Source of the DNA: Lachnospiraceae bacterium | GTDB taxonomy: Bacteria > Bacillota > Clostridia > Lachnospirales > Bianqueaceae | NCBI GenBank assembly: GCA_022794035.1 | Contig: JAAWDX010000012.1 | Coordinates: 124,001 to 188,000, forward strand | Reading direction: 5' to 3' | Length of the DNA stretch: 64,000 nucleotides | Shown here: positions 53,662 to 63,883 of the stretch, piece after piece | Position numbering within the stretch: the stretch's first letter is position 1 | Layout of the letters: the number at the start of each line of letters is the position of its first letter | Position numbers and translations under genes: made by a program | Notes under the pieces: model-generated | Databases searched by the model: none | What the model was told of the DNA's origin: nothing | What the model saw: only the letters and a program-made list of their open reading frames with translations

Positions 53662-54435
53662 ATGATTGAGAGGGAAACACTGACAGAACAATTAAAACAG
53701 AGCTTTTTGGATACCTATCTTCGGATTGCAGAGCTAGATAAAGTATTGATTCATTCTCCTGGTACCCTAATTTGGAAGGGCAAGGAGAAAAAGTACTCAT
53801 ATTGGCAGTACTATGTAAAGGGAAAGCAATTTCAACATTACGTTAGACCTGCTGAGCTTGCTGCCGTACAAAATGAGATTCGTGTTATGAAAGAGCAAAA
53901 AAGGCGTCGATCTGCTTTACGCACCTTTTTATCCTCCATAAAACGTGCGCTTCGCGCCTTTAAAATTCAGTGGCAGGAAATCTTGGCCGCCCATGAGCAG
54001 CAGCTGGCGGAAAAGAAAAAACAGCAGACTCTGCACCAAAGGGCTAAAAACATTGCAGCTAAGAAAAAATACACACATCAGTATAAGCATGCCACCGACC
54101 GCGGAGATCTAGTCGCATCAAAATCAGAGGAAATCATAGCTAATCTGCTTTTTTCCAGAGGGATCCGCTATGAATATGAGAAACCTATCACCATTGGAAG
54201 CTGGCACCTAAAGCCTGATTTTACCGTATGGAGAAAAGACGGAAGCATGCTCATCTGGGAACATGCCGGACTCGTGGATGATGAAAAGTATGCCCGCAAG
54301 TTTCAACAAAAGCTGGAGGTATACAAAAGCGCAGGCTTTACTCCAACCAAAAATCTAATCGTGACGGAAGATGAAAACGGCGCCTTCAGCGCGGAAGAAG
54401 CACGCCGAATGATATATTTATATAAATTGGATTAA
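53662..54435 (+). CDS. PD-(D/E)XK nuclease-like protein, unknown function
   Basis: A 257-residue protein. Residues about 44-62 (KYSYWQYYVKGKQFQHYV) form a small beta unit. Residues about 68-145 are Lys/Arg/Gln-rich and likely helical or coiled-coil. Residues about 150-250 look like a PD-(D/E)XK nuclease core: Glu156 in SKSEEIIANLL, Asp186 in LKPDFTVW, and Glu200 with His201 in LIWEHAG. The third position is E-H rather than the usual E/D-x-K, so activity is uncertain. GGAGG lies upstream of the ATG. The gene is AT-richer than its neighbours and sits next to 700 bases of repeat-bearing, AT-rich non-coding DNA, which suggests acquisition from elsewhere. I cannot name its family. Confidence 0.65.
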   Translation: MIERETLTEQLKQSFLDTYLRIAELDKVLIHSPGTLIWKGKEKKYSYWQYYVKGKQFQHYVRPAELAAVQNEIRVMKEQKRRRSALRTFLSSIKRALRAFKIQWQEILAAHEQQLAEKKKQQTLHQRAKNIAAKKKYTHQYKHATDRGDLVASKSEEIIANLLFSRGIRYEYEKPITIGSWHLKPDFTVWRKDGSMLIWEHAGLVDDEKYARKFQQKLEVYKSAGFTPTKNLIVTEDENGAFSAEEARRMIYLYKLD

Positions 54436-54921: not shown

Positions 54922-55153
54922 CCTTATAAAACGATATTTTCACTGGTAAAATTGAGTTTACGGATCTTCTAAAGCCTTGCTACACAATACTTTCGTAAAA
55001 TCCCTTGCTATTTTTCGACTTTATGAATATACTGTATGAACAAGGATTTGTCCCATTTTGTATAATAAAAAGGGCAGTGTATCACGCTTACACCAAGCCA
55101 GAACGAAAATATAGGCTCTGACTTTAAATCTTAATTGATATATGGAGGAAAAC

Positions 55154-56509
55154 ATGAAAAAAATTCATTTTATCGGCATCGGCGGAATCAGCATGAGCGC
55201 CATCGCTCTCATTATGAATAGTAAAGGCTACTACGTATCTGGTTCTGACTGCAATCCGTCCAAAATTACAGAACACCTGACCGAAGCCGGTATCCATGTT
55301 ACCATTGGCCAAAAAGCTGAAAACATCACACCTGATATGGATATCATAGTATACACAGCAGCCGTTCACGAAAATAACCCCGAGCTTATCGCCGCCCGCG
55401 CAACGCAGGCCCGTGTCATCACGCGCGCCATGATGCTTGGCGAACTGTTAGACGAATTTCCCGTCCCCGTTGGCGTGGCCGGAACACATGGCAAAACCAG
55501 CACCAGCAGCATGCTCGCCTATATCTATCTAGCCGCCAAACTCGATCCAACCGTCGCCATCGGCGGCATTCTGCAAAATCTCGGCGCCAATTACCGTATC
55601 GGCCACGGTACGCACATGCTGATAGAAGCCTGCGAGTACACTGACAGTTTTTTACATTTTCATCCACTGTACAATATTATTACCAATATCGAAGAAGATC
55701 ATCTTGATTATTTTCGAGATCTAGCACATATTCAGGACTCCTTCCATCGGTATGTCGCCGGCATGAAAAAAGGAGGCGCGCTCATCACCTCCCCCCAATG
55801 CGCCCAATTATTTAGCGACCTTCCTGTGCGCATTCTTACCGTTTCTCTCGATGAGCCCGCCGACATCACCTGTCAAAACATCACGCATTTACCCCATACG
55901 CTCGGCTCCTCTTTCGACCTAATTTACCAAGGAGAAAATCTAGGCCGTCTGGAGCTTCCTGTTCCTGGAAGGCACCTTCTTTACGATGCCCTATGCGCCG
56001 CGGGCGCAGCATTGGCCGAGGGACTCCCCTTCTCCGCTGTGTACGAGGGATTGAAGGCCTATCAAAGCACACAGCAGCGCTTCGAATACAAGGGAATGTT
56101 TCAGGGTGCCAAAGTTATTGATGATTATGCCCATCACCCTTCCGAGATCCGGGCCACCTTGCTCACTGCGCAAGAGGTCCCACATCAAGAGCTATACGTT
56201 GTTTTTCAGCCCCATACTTACAGCCGAACGATCGCGTTCTTTGATGATTTTGTGCGAGCTCTCTCCTTAGCAGACCATGTCATTTTAGCCGACATCTACA
56301 GTGCCTCCCGCGAAGTCGATACCGGAGAGATTAACTCCGCTATGCTCGCCGATGCCATCGCAAAAACTGGCACAGATGTCCATTATTTTCCATCGTTCGA
56401 TGAAATTGAAAAATTTCTTCAAAAAAACATTTCCACCAATGACCTGTTGATAACTATGGGGGCTGGAAAAGCCGTAGATATCGCTAATCATCTCATCAGT
56501 CAGCAGTAA
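55154..56509 (+). CDS. murC: UDP-N-acetylmuramate--L-alanine ligase
   Basis: A 451-residue cytosolic ligase that adds the first amino acid to UDP-MurNAc in peptidoglycan synthesis. The N-terminal Rossmann part is MKKIHFIGIGGISMSAIALIM, the ATP-binding loop is GVAGTHGKTSTSSML (about 104-118), EACEYTDSFLHFHPLYNIITNIEEDHLDYF is the MurC-type middle block (read in parts), and DDYAHHPSEIRATL marks the C-terminal domain. The middle Cys-Glu-Tyr motif and length match MurC rather than Mpl. I chose ATG 55154, with GGAGG five bases upstream. It is separated from other mur genes and precedes the DnaA-box cluster. Confidence 0.95.
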   Translation: MKKIHFIGIGGISMSAIALIMNSKGYYVSGSDCNPSKITEHLTEAGIHVTIGQKAENITPDMDIIVYTAAVHENNPELIAARATQARVITRAMMLGELLDEFPVPVGVAGTHGKTSTSSMLAYIYLAAKLDPTVAIGGILQNLGANYRIGHGTHMLIEACEYTDSFLHFHPLYNIITNIEEDHLDYFRDLAHIQDSFHRYVAGMKKGGALITSPQCAQLFSDLPVRILTVSLDEPADITCQNITHLPHTLGSSFDLIYQGENLGRLELPVPGRHLLYDALCAAGAALAEGLPFSAVYEGLKAYQSTQQRFEYKGMFQGAKVIDDYAHHPSEIRATLLTAQEVPHQELYVVFQPHTYSRTIAFFDDFVRALSLADHVILADIYSASREVDTGEINSAMLADAIAKTGTDVHYFPSFDEIEKFLQKNISTNDLLITMGAGKAVDIANHLISQQ

Positions 56510-56671
56510 TCCACATTATCCACACTTGTTCGCTCCAAACAAGCGTTCAGGTATTTGTGGATAACTTTCTCAATTTTGTGGATAACTTTTCTTTAAAAAT
56601 CCAGCATAAACAAAGACTTTTAGCTAAAAAACAATTCAATGCCCTCTAGTTATCCACACGGCTGTGAATAA
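56507..56671. promoter_or_regulatory. Cluster of five DnaA boxes
   Basis: TTATCCACA occurs at 56516-56524, its reverse complement TGTGGATAA at 56556-56564 and 56577-56585, TTATCCACA at 56650-56658, and TGTGAATAA (TTATTCACA) at 56663-56671. All match the DnaA consensus TTATNCACA; TAATCCACA at 56507-56515 is a near match overlapping the murC stop. An AT-rich stretch (about 56586-56640) lies between the inner boxes. Such density suggests DnaA binding, as an origin, a DnaA-titrating site or a DnaA-controlled promoter for dnaD-dnaC. Confidence 0.85.
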
Positions 56672-56703
56672 CTTATATAGCCATCCGGTGGATTTGTCCC
56701 CTC

Positions 56704-56732
56704 TTCACAACCCAAAGCAGGTAGTGTATAAT
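56704..56732 (+). promoter_or_regulatory. Promoter of dnaD-dnaC
   Basis: TTCACA (56704-56709) and TATAAT (56727-56732) are 17 bases apart, 33 bases downstream of the last DnaA box. The transcript would begin with the hairpin at 56746-56776. Confidence 0.75.
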
Positions 56733-56745
56733 ATGTAACATCTAA

Positions 56746-56776
56746 ACAGATTCGGCAAAGCTTTTGTCGAATCTGT
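56746..56776 (+). promoter_or_regulatory. Leader hairpin upstream of dnaD
   Basis: ACAGATTCG (56746-56754) pairs with CGAATCTGT (56768-56776), with an internal AAAGCTTT that could extend it. It is in the leader of the dnaD transcript and has no T tract, so it is not a classical terminator. Confidence 0.5.
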
Positions 56777-56815
56777 CCCTTTACTCTCAATACCAAAAGA
56801 AAGTTGGAAATTCGT

Positions 56816-57871
56816 ATGCCTGCTCTGTTATTCCAAAAACGGGAAGCCGATTTTGCCACTCCCATTTCTGATGATTTTATTCTGCATCACATGCCCTCTG
56901 CCAATGGAAATTATGTCAAAGTCTACTTATATGTTTTTCACTATTTTTACAGAGGACAAGCCAACGACCTAAGCTTTTCCACAAAGGAAGTAGCAGCCTC
57001 GCTCCGCATGCTGGAATCCGATGTACTGCAAGCCTTGCAGTATTGGCATGCCCAGAAAGCTTTAACGCTCACTGAAAATGGAGAACAGCTCTGGCTCTCC
57101 TTCCCGCCGTTTGGCGCCCTGCCGCCATCTGGGTCCGACCCCACTGGCACCGAGCATCCCAAAGTGGTCCGGGTAGAACATAAGCCAACCTATTCTCCAG
57201 AGGAAATCAATATTTATGAGCAGAATCCTCTGATTAAAGATCTGTTTTCCAGTGCGTCCCGCCTTCTCGGCGAACAGTTCAGCTTTCCCAATCTTTCTCT
57301 TTTATTCAGCTTTTATGATTATTATCGGCTGCCCATCAATGTCATCAAATTTTTGTTGGAATACTGCATTCAGAATGGCAACCGAAGTCTTCGTTACATC
57401 GAAAAAGTAGCGCAGGACTGGTCTGATCATGGCATCACAACTTTAGAAGCTGCCCACGCCTATGTAAAACGCTTTGATTTATATCGTCCTATCATGAAAG
57501 CTTTAGGAATCAGCGAACGCAGGCCTACGGAGCAGGAAATTGAAATGATGGATCGCTGGCTTTACCAATATGGTCACAGTCTGGAGCTCATTACAGAAGC
57601 GGCAGCACGTACGATGCGTAAAACAGGCAAACCAAGCTTCAAATATATGGAAAGCATCTTAAAATCCTGGTCCGAAAATCAAATTCGCACCTTAGAAGAT
57701 GTAAACCGCAGCGATGAAGCCTTTGCTGCTAAGCGTAATGCCGCTAATACTACTTCTGCGCGCGCTCCTAAGGGCAGTAATTTCCATACATATATCGGCC
57801 GTGATGACTGGGATTTTGAAAGCATTGAAAAGCATGCGCAGCAGCAGCTGTATTCACAGGAAGGGAACTAA
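56816..57871 (+). CDS. dnaD: DnaD-domain primosomal protein
   Basis: A 351-residue replication initiation protein. Residues about 15-100 look like the winged-helix N-terminal DnaD domain (PISDDFILHHMPSANGNYVKVYLYVFHYF). Two DnaB_2/DnaD C-terminal domains follow: about 160-225 with YIEKVAQDW, and about 245-300 with YMESILKSW, each showing the YxxxIxxxW motif. In B. subtilis DnaD and DnaB act with the DnaI loader to place helicase at the origin. The start is uncertain: ATG 56816 has GGAAA upstream, while an in-frame TTG lies 12 bases earlier. The symbol is used loosely, as this protein has two DnaD domains. Confidence 0.87.
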   Translation: MPALLFQKREADFATPISDDFILHHMPSANGNYVKVYLYVFHYFYRGQANDLSFSTKEVAASLRMLESDVLQALQYWHAQKALTLTENGEQLWLSFPPFGALPPSGSDPTGTEHPKVVRVEHKPTYSPEEINIYEQNPLIKDLFSSASRLLGEQFSFPNLSLLFSFYDYYRLPINVIKFLLEYCIQNGNRSLRYIEKVAQDWSDHGITTLEAAHAYVKRFDLYRPIMKALGISERRPTEQEIEMMDRWLYQYGHSLELITEAAARTMRKTGKPSFKYMESILKSWSENQIRTLEDVNRSDEAFAAKRNAANTTSARAPKGSNFHTYIGRDDWDFESIEKHAQQQLYSQEGN

Positions 57872-57874
57872 ACC

Positions 57875-58861
57875 ATGTCCATATCAGAAACACATATTGC
57901 TCAAATTCTTCGGGAGTACGACAGTATGCGATCGGCTGCTGAGGCGCAGGCATTGCAGCGCCGGCAGCAGCTGTACCGTCATATTCCCCGTATCAAGGCG
58001 ATCGACCGGGAGCTTGAGGCCTTTGGTCTTCGCGCTGTCCAGACCTATCTGCGTACCGGCACCGATAAAGCCTTAGTGATTTCTGAACTTAAGCAGCAAA
58101 ATCAAAGACTTCTTTCTGAGAAACAGCAGCTCATGGCATCAGCCGGCTATCCTGACGATTACTTAGCAGTGCAGTATCACTGCCCGCTTTGCCGCGATAC
58201 CGGTTATGTAGATGGCCAAAAGTGCCGCTGCCTCCGTCAGCGATTAATCGATCTGGCTTATGACCGTTCTAACTTAAAAGCTGTATTGCAGAGGGAAAAT
58301 TTAGCCACCTTTTCCCTTGCCCGCTTTTCCTCAGATCCTGTTTCCGGAGAGCCCTACTCTCCCTCAGAAAATGCAAGGCAGGTACATGAATTTGTTCTGC
58401 ATTTTATTCAGAACTTTCCGCAAAACACACCTGCAAACCTTCTTTTTTACGGTCCCACCGGAACCGGAAAAACATTTTTTTGCAATTGCATTGCCAAAGC
58501 ACTTTTAGATGCAGGCTTTATCGTGCTTTATATGACAGCCTCCGAGCTCTGCAGCGCCTTTGAAGCCTTTCGTTTTCGTGATAAGAGCCGTTCTGCATCC
58601 GGAGATATTCATGAACTGATTGATGATTCGGACCTACTCATCATCGATGATCTGGGTACTGAATTTACTACCGCCCTCTCCTCCTCCGACATGTTTCAAT
58701 GCATCAATCAACGGCTTCTGCATCAAAAATCAACCATCATTTCAACGAATCTAAACCTAAGTCAGATCAGCAAGGTATATACCGACCGCATAGCCTCCCG
58801 CATCTCGGGAAGCTATCGCCTGATCAAGCTCTATGGTCCGGATTTGCGCAGACAATTTTAA
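57875..58861 (+). CDS. dnaC: DnaC/DnaI-like helicase loader ATPase
   Basis: A 328-residue AAA+ ATPase, three bases after dnaD. Residues about 1-85 are helical; a zinc-ribbon-like CPLCRDTGYVDGQKCRC (about 106-122) follows; the ATPase domain (about 165-328) has Walker A GPTGTGKTFF, Walker B LLIIDDLGTE, sensor 1 STNL and the C-terminal Arg-finger region YTDRIASRISGSY. The set fits the DnaC/DnaI/IstB-like loader family, which brings the replicative helicase to DNA. No transposase is adjacent, so the IstB role is unlikely. Termination is at 58880-58922. Confidence 0.92.
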   Translation: MSISETHIAQILREYDSMRSAAEAQALQRRQQLYRHIPRIKAIDRELEAFGLRAVQTYLRTGTDKALVISELKQQNQRLLSEKQQLMASAGYPDDYLAVQYHCPLCRDTGYVDGQKCRCLRQRLIDLAYDRSNLKAVLQRENLATFSLARFSSDPVSGEPYSPSENARQVHEFVLHFIQNFPQNTPANLLFYGPTGTGKTFFCNCIAKALLDAGFIVLYMTASELCSAFEAFRFRDKSRSASGDIHELIDDSDLLIIDDLGTEFTTALSSSDMFQCINQRLLHQKSTIISTNLNLSQISKVYTDRIASRISGSYRLIKLYGPDLRRQF

Positions 58862-62596: not shown

Positions 62597-63883
62597 TTAT
62601 TGCTGGTAAAACTCCAGAAAAGATTTCTTGGTATACTCATAATCCGCAACTGCCATCAGCTCTCTCGCAGAATGCATCGAAAGCAAGGCAATTCCCATAT
62701 CCATGATATGACAGGGCAGATTGGCCGCGATCACCGGTCCCAGAGTAGAACCGCCTCTGGAATCTGACTTGTTGGTAAATTTCTGCACCGGAACGCCTGC
62801 CTTTTGACAAATCATTTCATATACGCCATAATCACAACTCTGCGTCACATAGCTCTGTGCGGCTGCCAGCTTGATCACCGGACCGCCTCCCAACTGCGTT
62901 TTCATAACAGGATCATGCTTTTCCGGATGATTCGGATGTACGGCATGTGCTACATCGGCCGAGATCATAAAGGATTGCATAATGTCATCAATAAACTGCT
63001 CCCGGCTGCGCCCCAGCGCATAGCTGATTTTTTCCATGATATAAGTAATCGTACTGGTCCCTGCTCCTTGCGGCGTGCGGCTTCCGCATTCCTCATGATC
63101 AAAGGCACACAGTACATTGATGCCAGTCCCTCCCTTAGCCTGGGTAAGCGCTGCTGCCGCTGTATACACCATCACCAAGTCATCCAGTCTGGAGGCTGAC
63201 AAAAATTCATCATGAAATCCTACAATTTGCGGTTCCTCCGTTACATACGTAAACAGATCAAAATCCAGAATCTCCTCCTGATTCACTCCCAGCTGCTCAG
63301 CAACCGCCCGCAGCACCATCTGTTCCTGCTCCTCACCCAGATTGGGAATCAGCGCCCCCACCGGAAGCATGTCCACCTGCGCATTCAGCGCCAGTCCGTC
63401 ATTGACGCCCCGGTTCATATGAATTGCCAGATTAGGAATAATAAGCACAGGCTTCTTTATATTAACAAGCTCTGTTCGCGGATGAAAGACATCTTCACTT
63501 TTTAAGGTAACGCGGCCAGCCAGTGACAGCGGCCTGTCCAGCCATGTACTGAAAATAGGACCACCGTAAATCTCTGCATTTAGCTTGCAGTATCCGTTTT
63601 GATTGATCTGCGCACAGGGCTTAATCCTCAGGCAGGGCTGATCTGTATGCGCTCCGATCAGACGGTACAGCGGCGCCTTCACCTGCTGCATATCGTCCGG
63701 AATGGTGAATGCGATACAGGCAGAATCCCACAAGGTTACGAAATATTTTCCGTTTTCCTGCAAGGACCACGGCTCATGCAGCGCAAGCTGCTCAAACCCG
63801 GATTCCTGCAGCATAGATTTCAGATTTTTTACGGCATAAAAGCATACCGGCGAATCCTTTAAAAACTGCATAAACTGTTTCAT
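62597..63883 (-). CDS. M18 family aminopeptidase
   Basis: A 428-residue zinc aminopeptidase that removes N-terminal, often acidic, residues from peptides. Metal and catalytic residues are visible: IGAHTDQPCLRIKP (His and Asp, about 77-90), FDHEECGSRTPQGAG (Glu-Glu, about 259-273), SADVAHAVHPNHPEKHDP (about 312-329) and LLSMHSARELMAVADY near the end. These match the M18 signature. Start ATG 63883 has AAAGGAG upstream and overlaps the nth stop by four bases. Confidence 0.94.
   Translation of the reverse strand: MKQFMQFLKDSPVCFYAVKNLKSMLQESGFEQLALHEPWSLQENGKYFVTLWDSACIAFTIPDDMQQVKAPLYRLIGAHTDQPCLRIKPCAQINQNGYCKLNAEIYGGPIFSTWLDRPLSLAGRVTLKSEDVFHPRTELVNIKKPVLIIPNLAIHMNRGVNDGLALNAQVDMLPVGALIPNLGEEQEQMVLRAVAEQLGVNQEEILDFDLFTYVTEEPQIVGFHDEFLSASRLDDLVMVYTAAAALTQAKGGTGINVLCAFDHEECGSRTPQGAGTSTITYIMEKISYALGRSREQFIDDIMQSFMISADVAHAVHPNHPEKHDPVMKTQLGGGPVIKLAAAQSYVTQSCDYGVYEMICQKAGVPVQKFTNKSDSRGGSTLGPVIAANLPCHIMDMGIALLSMHSARELMAVADYEYTKKSFLEFYQQ

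Follow-up and report, generated by a model that had tools for sequence, protein, structure and literature searches.

Conserved DnaA boxes between murC and dnaD-dnaC: a putative DnaA-binding element outside the origin in Lachnospirales-like bacteria

We found that the gap between murC and dnaD in a Lachnospiraceae bacterium contains a dense cluster of DnaA boxes, and that boxes are conserved at this junction in the order to which the bacterium belongs. DnaA very likely binds the cluster, because the boxes are strong and conserved. We propose that the cluster is a high-affinity DnaA-binding element separate from the origin and that it probably controls the dnaD-dnaC promoter from upstream. Initiation control in clostridial gut bacteria is little studied, and an array kept at one junction over many families is a specific candidate for feedback between the initiator and the helicase loader.

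The window, that is, the whole 64,000-nucleotide stretch of DNA that was analysed, has five TTATNCACA boxes within 156 bp (56516-56671) directly upstream of dnaD-dnaC. This agrees with the original prediction; four of the boxes are TTATCCACA and one is TTATTCACA, and to these we add a sixth, TAATCCACA. The boxes at the murC stop are called group 1 and those nearest dnaD group 2. Gene identities are from matches to NCBIfam and Pfam profiles. The features are as follows.

55142-56509, + strand: murC, UDP-N-acetylmuramate--L-alanine ligase (TIGR01082, 436 bits, cut-off 335), with its TAA stop codon at 56507-56509.
56507-56524, + strand: group 1, a head-to-tail pair (TAATCCACA and TTATCCACA) at the murC stop.
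56507-56515: first box of the pair, TAATCCACA, the sixth box, with one mismatch; it starts with the murC stop codon and overlaps it.
56516-56524, + strand: second box of group 1, TTATCCACA.
56556-56564, - strand: DnaA box TTATCCACA; the second genome of the genus (G001) has TTATTCACA at the equivalent place.
56577-56585, - strand: DnaA box TTATCCACA; the equivalent place is occupied in G001.
56586-56649: A+T-rich spacer of 64 bases between the box groups, ~30% G+C (counted by eye).
56650-56658 (+ strand) and 56663-56671 (- strand): group 2, an inverted pair (TTATCCACA and TTATTCACA) with 4 bases between the boxes, also present in G001.
56704-56732, + strand: predicted dnaD promoter, TTCACA-17-TATAAT, with 32 bases from the last box to the -35 and an equivalent in relatives.
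56746-56776, + strand: hairpin in the predicted dnaD leader, with a predicted 14-bp stem (-19.5 kcal/mol; z of -3.5 relative to simple shuffles).
56816-57871, + strand: gene for a DnaD-type primosome protein (TIGR01446, 79 bits; PF07261, 124 bits), with an ATG start (possible alternative, TTG at 56804).
57875-58861, + strand: gene for a DnaC-type helicase loader ATPase (NF005304/PRK06835, 365 bits, cut-off 215).

The A+T-rich stretch, the 17-spaced promoter after the last box, and the DnaD-domain protein and helicase loader downstream had all been predicted from the sequence, and all were recovered here. The spacer had no terminator-like hairpin. An Rfam search of the 64-kb window matched no family, and plasmid records held no similar DNA. 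The predicted dnaD leader is ~77 bases, and its hairpin was not consistently found across 15 family members. Neither NCBIfam nor Pfam gave a match at E<=0.001 for an open reading frame of 257 amino acids between pth and murC (53662-54435), the C-terminal half of which resembles a nuclease, as judged by eye only.

Clusters of this kind are rare in the genome. The window has seven TTATNCACA boxes, five of them in the murC-dnaD gap; shuffled windows had a mean of 2.0, and none of 100 reached seven. There are 105 boxes in the genome of 2.317 Mb, a density at which any five-box cluster in 165 bp has a chance of ~1e-8 (Poisson estimate). Among the 100 boxes listed of these 105, at least three occurred within ~400 bases only in the murC-dnaD gap, upstream of dnaA (six boxes) and in the gap after dnaA (four boxes). 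Of all 83 boxes in G001, clusters of at least four were found only before dnaD (five), before dnaA (nine) and behind dnaA (four). The murC-dnaD junction has several boxes in ~300 bp outside oriC, far above the genome background. It is extremely unlikely that chance or base composition produced the cluster: no point in favor of this was found, and it is contradicted by the shuffles and, as described below, by letter permutations, by the flanking sequence and by both sets of relatives.

We looked for dnaD in 58 genomes (this one included) of this genus, family and order, and 55 of them had a hit. We refer to the order as Lachnospirales-like because its named relatives among GTDB genomes are mostly Lachnospiraceae, four rows of which fall inside the order in a MurC tree. 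There were 67 dnaD loci in this set, and the 47 in which 60-700 bp separate murC from dnaD were used for box counts. Boxes matching TTATNCACA were present in 42 of the 47 gaps, with at least two in 35 and at least three in 18; five gaps had none. Box density was ~80 times that of the flanks (107 boxes in 15,222 bases of gaps vs 20 in 236,360 bases elsewhere in these loci). Among 560 letter permutations of the box pattern the true pattern ranked first, with 107 matches compared to 42 for the runner-up, which is itself part of tandem boxes.

A second set gave similar counts. In a sample of 157 genomes of the order, 153 gave a murC hit; from this sample we picked 60 genomes by hand across families, with no overlap with the first set. 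Gaps of at least 60 bp had at least one box in 30 of 35 cases (at least two in 26, at least three in 19, none in five), and gaps shorter than 60 bp had boxes in none of three. Where dnaD was not within 1.85 kb of murC, 10 of 22 loci had a box and five had at least two. The original prediction would have been undermined by a lack of box conservation in sister species; boxes are conserved within both the genus and the order. These counts, like the Fisher tests below, take no account of the shared ancestry of the genomes.

The boxes are also conserved as sequence. Between this genome and G001, box columns were 96% identical (43/45) and the remainder of the gap was 53% identical (144/271); for two named relatives the values were 100% (27/27) and 36% (97/269). 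Ten pairs were compared in all. Boxes were 61-67% identical in three of them and 47% identical in one (with 40% for the rest of its gap), values only modestly above the rest. Box positions thus turn over between distant genera. Box number and orientation vary, and one family (f1) uses both strands. Two loci had no dnaD hit (L068, L148) and one ends at a contig edge (L233). A second copy in one genome (L086, in G044) was set aside, and a near-copy of another locus (L071, of L070) was left out of the analyses of 81 gaps that follow.

Measured from the murC stop, box positions in the 81 gaps peaked at 0-14 bases and again at 105-180 bases. The commonest spacing from the last group 1 box to the first group 2 box was 154-156 or 108. 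We counted the two groups separately, group 1 being a box no more than 30 bp from the end of murC and group 2 a box 90-190 bp on, in the 72 of 81 linked gaps of at least 190 bp and in 30 loci at which murC and dnaD are unlinked. Group 1 was present at 40 of the 72 linked loci and at 10 of the 30 unlinked ones (Fisher p 0.05, with genomes treated as independent). In contrast, group 2 was present at 56 of 72 linked loci and only 2 of 30 unlinked loci (p 1e-11, again with genomes treated as independent, and with some of the unlinked stretches maybe coding), a large difference in spite of these limits. On this sequence evidence, group 2 goes with dnaD, and group 1 remains with murC also at loci that do not have dnaD nearby.

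The explanation that the boxes are merely a feature of murC is thus rejected for group 2 and is partly right for group 1. Because 10 of 30 unlinked loci keep a box near the murC stop, part of the element either does something else or is a remnant. In the first set, where dnaD was located away from murC, none of eight loci had a box in the region upstream of dnaD. Control of dnaD by DnaA is therefore not general.

The coupling of group 2 to dnaD, together with its position before the promoter, makes control of dnaD-dnaC the best explanation of the cluster. In the 68 gaps with a box upstream of a predicted promoter, the median distance from the last box to the -35 was 55 bases (quartiles 44-104; these are from a simple promoter scan and each is weak evidence singly). 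A box overlapped the promoter in only 4 of 80 gaps. The predicted dnaD promoter in the window is of a quality expected by chance for a region of this size (shuffles had a mean of 1.3), and its position recurs in relatives. Thus, the boxes lie near the promoter and are conserved with the gene, as for a DnaA-regulated promoter. The original prediction had raised the possibility that DnaA feeds back on the primosome operon as a switch; the presence of boxes in sister species and the association of group 2 with dnaD lend support to it at the level of sequence.

Group 1 sits at the end of murC, and group 2 commonly ends 30-60 bp before the -35. Based on this arrangement, DnaA would occupy the strong boxes and could join the two groups, which are ~100-175 bp apart, into one complex by looping. 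Transcription of dnaD-dnaC would then respond to how much free DnaA there is, or to its state, and this would set the level of the helicase loader. Activation seems somewhat likelier than repression, because the boxes are upstream of the promoter and seldom on top of it. DnaD is reported to inhibit cooperative binding of DnaA in Bacillus subtilis (PMC5295017), which makes plausible a loop in which DnaA sets the levels of DnaD and DnaC, and DnaD restrains DnaA.

DnaA bound at the cluster would also be withheld from oriC, so the cluster perhaps titrates DnaA as well. The DnaA-box clusters of B. subtilis and, in an older reading, the datA locus of E. coli are sinks for DnaA. The main alternative to promoter control is that the cluster is solely such a sink, binding free DnaA and delaying initiation, with its location next to dnaD incidental. 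The strong consensus boxes and the persistence of group 1 at the end of murC without dnaD (10/30 loci) fit this alternative, as does the report that deleting six clusters outside oriC causes early initiation in B. subtilis (PMC5295017). A pure sink leaves unexplained the tie between group 2 and dnaD. In addition, a sink works best at a constant distance from oriC, yet the distance from murC to dnaA ranged from 46 kb to 1.26 Mb in the 11 genomes of the order with both genes on one contig. We consider a sink alone rather unlikely, although titration may hold alongside control of the promoter.

The orientation of the boxes bears on a third explanation. Across the 81 gaps, 145 boxes point with transcription and 36 against; in the 0-14 bases after the murC stop, 57 point with transcription and one against. 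DnaA roadblocks that depend on orientation are known in E. coli. DnaA bound at the end of murC might stop RNA polymerase coming from murC, or manage its collisions with replication, which would make read-through into dnaD dependent on DnaA. With the origin assumed to be at dnaA, murC-dnaD (murC alone in G253) is head-on to the replication fork in 9 of the 11 genomes, and by skew it is head-on in the window as well, an arrangement also favorable to a roadblock. A head-on orientation in so many genomes is unusual for essential genes. The two genomes in which murC-dnaD is co-directional with the fork belong to one genus (G239, G310) and still keep three boxes, and the window boxes at 56556 and 56577 point the other way. 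A roadblock also leaves group 2 near the promoter unexplained, and we regard it as quite improbable as the function of the cluster.

A bolder version combines the two activities in one circuit from initiator to loader across the order, with two phased groups of boxes, in which DnaA would block transcription from murC and drive the dnaD-dnaC promoter. We think it quite unlikely that the circuit exists in this full form. If it does, the helicase loader would be made only when DnaA exceeds the need of oriC, and cell-wall synthesis, the state of the initiator and helicase loading would be tied together at one head-on locus. The array exists in dozens of natural variants, which differ in whether group 1, group 2 or dnaD is present.

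We also considered the suggestion that the cluster is a secondary or actual origin of replication. Like an oriC, it has a cluster of DnaA boxes, and it has an A+T-rich spacer. As had been noted, dnaA is outside the window; we found it on a different contig (C1, 146364-147677; the murC-dnaD cluster is on C12). In a 16-kb stretch around dnaA, GC skew turned from negative (-0.21) to positive (+0.10), and cumulative skew was lowest at 148479. A check of skew at the murC-dnaD cluster had been proposed, and there was no inflection there (-0.138 over 60 kb to the left, -0.133 over 27 kb to the right); all 8-kb bins were negative in the 124-kb stretch around the cluster. We searched for an unwinding module, defined as three or more consecutive [CT]TA with a box (<=2 mismatches) in the 30 bases that precede them. 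As a positive control, this box/DnaA-trio module was found in 19 of 29 gaps after dnaA, including that of this genome. It was found in none of the 81 murC-dnaD gaps (shuffled gaps had a mean of 0.44). The gap after dnaA in this genome contains boxes, a GC-rich step and CTA repeats. This is the known layout for unwinding.

Gene directions had been read as mostly leftward before about 53.5 kb and mostly rightward after it. The rightward part was found, as a block of large open reading frames at 53.7-62.0 kb (~8.5 kb). The block ends inside the window, with a leftward frame at 62597-63883 and most open reading frames leftward in the next 20 kb. That is, the block is local and there is no switch of replichore. 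The position of dnaA, the skew, the unwinding module and the gene directions largely refute an origin at the cluster, and we consider one very unlikely.

The array of boxes is a feature of this order. A MurC tree of 55 rows set the order apart from the outgroup (97/91), with the placement of families f11, f17, f15 and f19 near the base unresolved. We sampled the class with 147 genomes, from which 60 loci were taken, mostly one per family; 59 were outside the order and 58 of these had a dnaD hit. None of the 58 had murC upstream of dnaD, and the neighbor of dnaD was highly variable. In the 700 bases upstream of dnaD, 53 of 58 had no box, three had one, and the remaining two, both in family f59, had two and three. 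No box was found within 190 bases of the end of murC at 13 loci outside the order. Family f59 is possibly a separate case: two of its loci (L191 in G092, L169 in G140) have five and two boxes ~500-840 bp upstream of dnaD, without murC, and may be convergent.

Several known systems resemble the murC-dnaD element in part. DnaA of B. subtilis activates sda through an upstream array of boxes (PMC4447404). Both arrays precede a gene linked to replication control, but the target of the former is a sporulation checkpoint gene, and binding and activation have been shown for sda, whereas here both are predicted. Like the DnaA-box clusters of B. subtilis (upstream of ywlC, sda/yqeG and vpr/ywcI, and near gcp, jag and yydA), it has several consensus boxes in ~300 bp; those clusters are likewise mostly intergenic, away from oriC and few per genome. 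In contrast to them, the boxes here stay at a single gene junction throughout an order, in two groups whose places are fixed. The top 20 DnaA-bound regions of B. subtilis, as given in Table 1 of PMC4447404, include none at dnaB, dnaD, dnaI or murC.

In Caulobacter, DnaA boxes before dnaB and dnaQ are part of the DnaA regulon (PMC8203912) and so also precede replication genes; dnaB encodes the replicative helicase itself, in another phylum, and the portions of that review available report no two-part array across an order, and do not mention dnaD, dnaI or nrdR. The datA, DARS1 and DARS2 loci of E. coli are likewise non-coding clusters of DnaA boxes outside oriC that adjust DnaA, but their effect is on the nucleotide state of DnaA, and datA works together with IHF. 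Such loci are reportedly absent from B. subtilis (PMC13220808, from the part available). The bipartite oriC of Clostridioides difficile (oriC1/oriC2) also has two groups of boxes, but it lies on either side of dnaA and includes an unwinding element and a DnaA-trio (PMC7561715), whereas the murC-dnaD element is away from dnaA and shows no DnaA-trio. The accessible text of that paper mentions a DnaD homologue but not boxes before its gene, and reports C. difficile to be without characterised partners of DnaA known from gram-negative bacteria. A full-text literature search, which covered few subscription papers, found no account of DnaA boxes before dnaD-dnaC or after murC; an effect of DnaA on primosome genes may be in print.

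Box pairs were seen at other genes as well. Head-to-tail pairs occur upstream of the ribosome hibernation gene hpf/yfiA (TIGR00741) at four loci (L110, L111, L116 and L131, at ~position 1501) in four genomes (G038, G051, G021 and G031) of three families, and this gene is possibly a second conserved target of DnaA. Similar pairs are upstream of a gene for the substrate-binding protein of a polar amino-acid ABC transporter (L108, L109 and L127, at ~position 1501) in three genomes (G043, G019 and G041) of two families. Genome G027 has a perfect tandem pair (L107:1501-1518) behind the cell-wall gene murI (glutamate racemase); its murC-dnaD gap is only ~20-38 bp and has no boxes. A search of genome G223, a single contig of 3.28 Mb, detected no DnaA at E<=1e-100. 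Domain IV of DnaA was not convincingly found in G223, G021 or G267, although G231, of the same genus as G223, has one. The absence of DnaA from G223 and G021 most likely reflects gaps in the assemblies.
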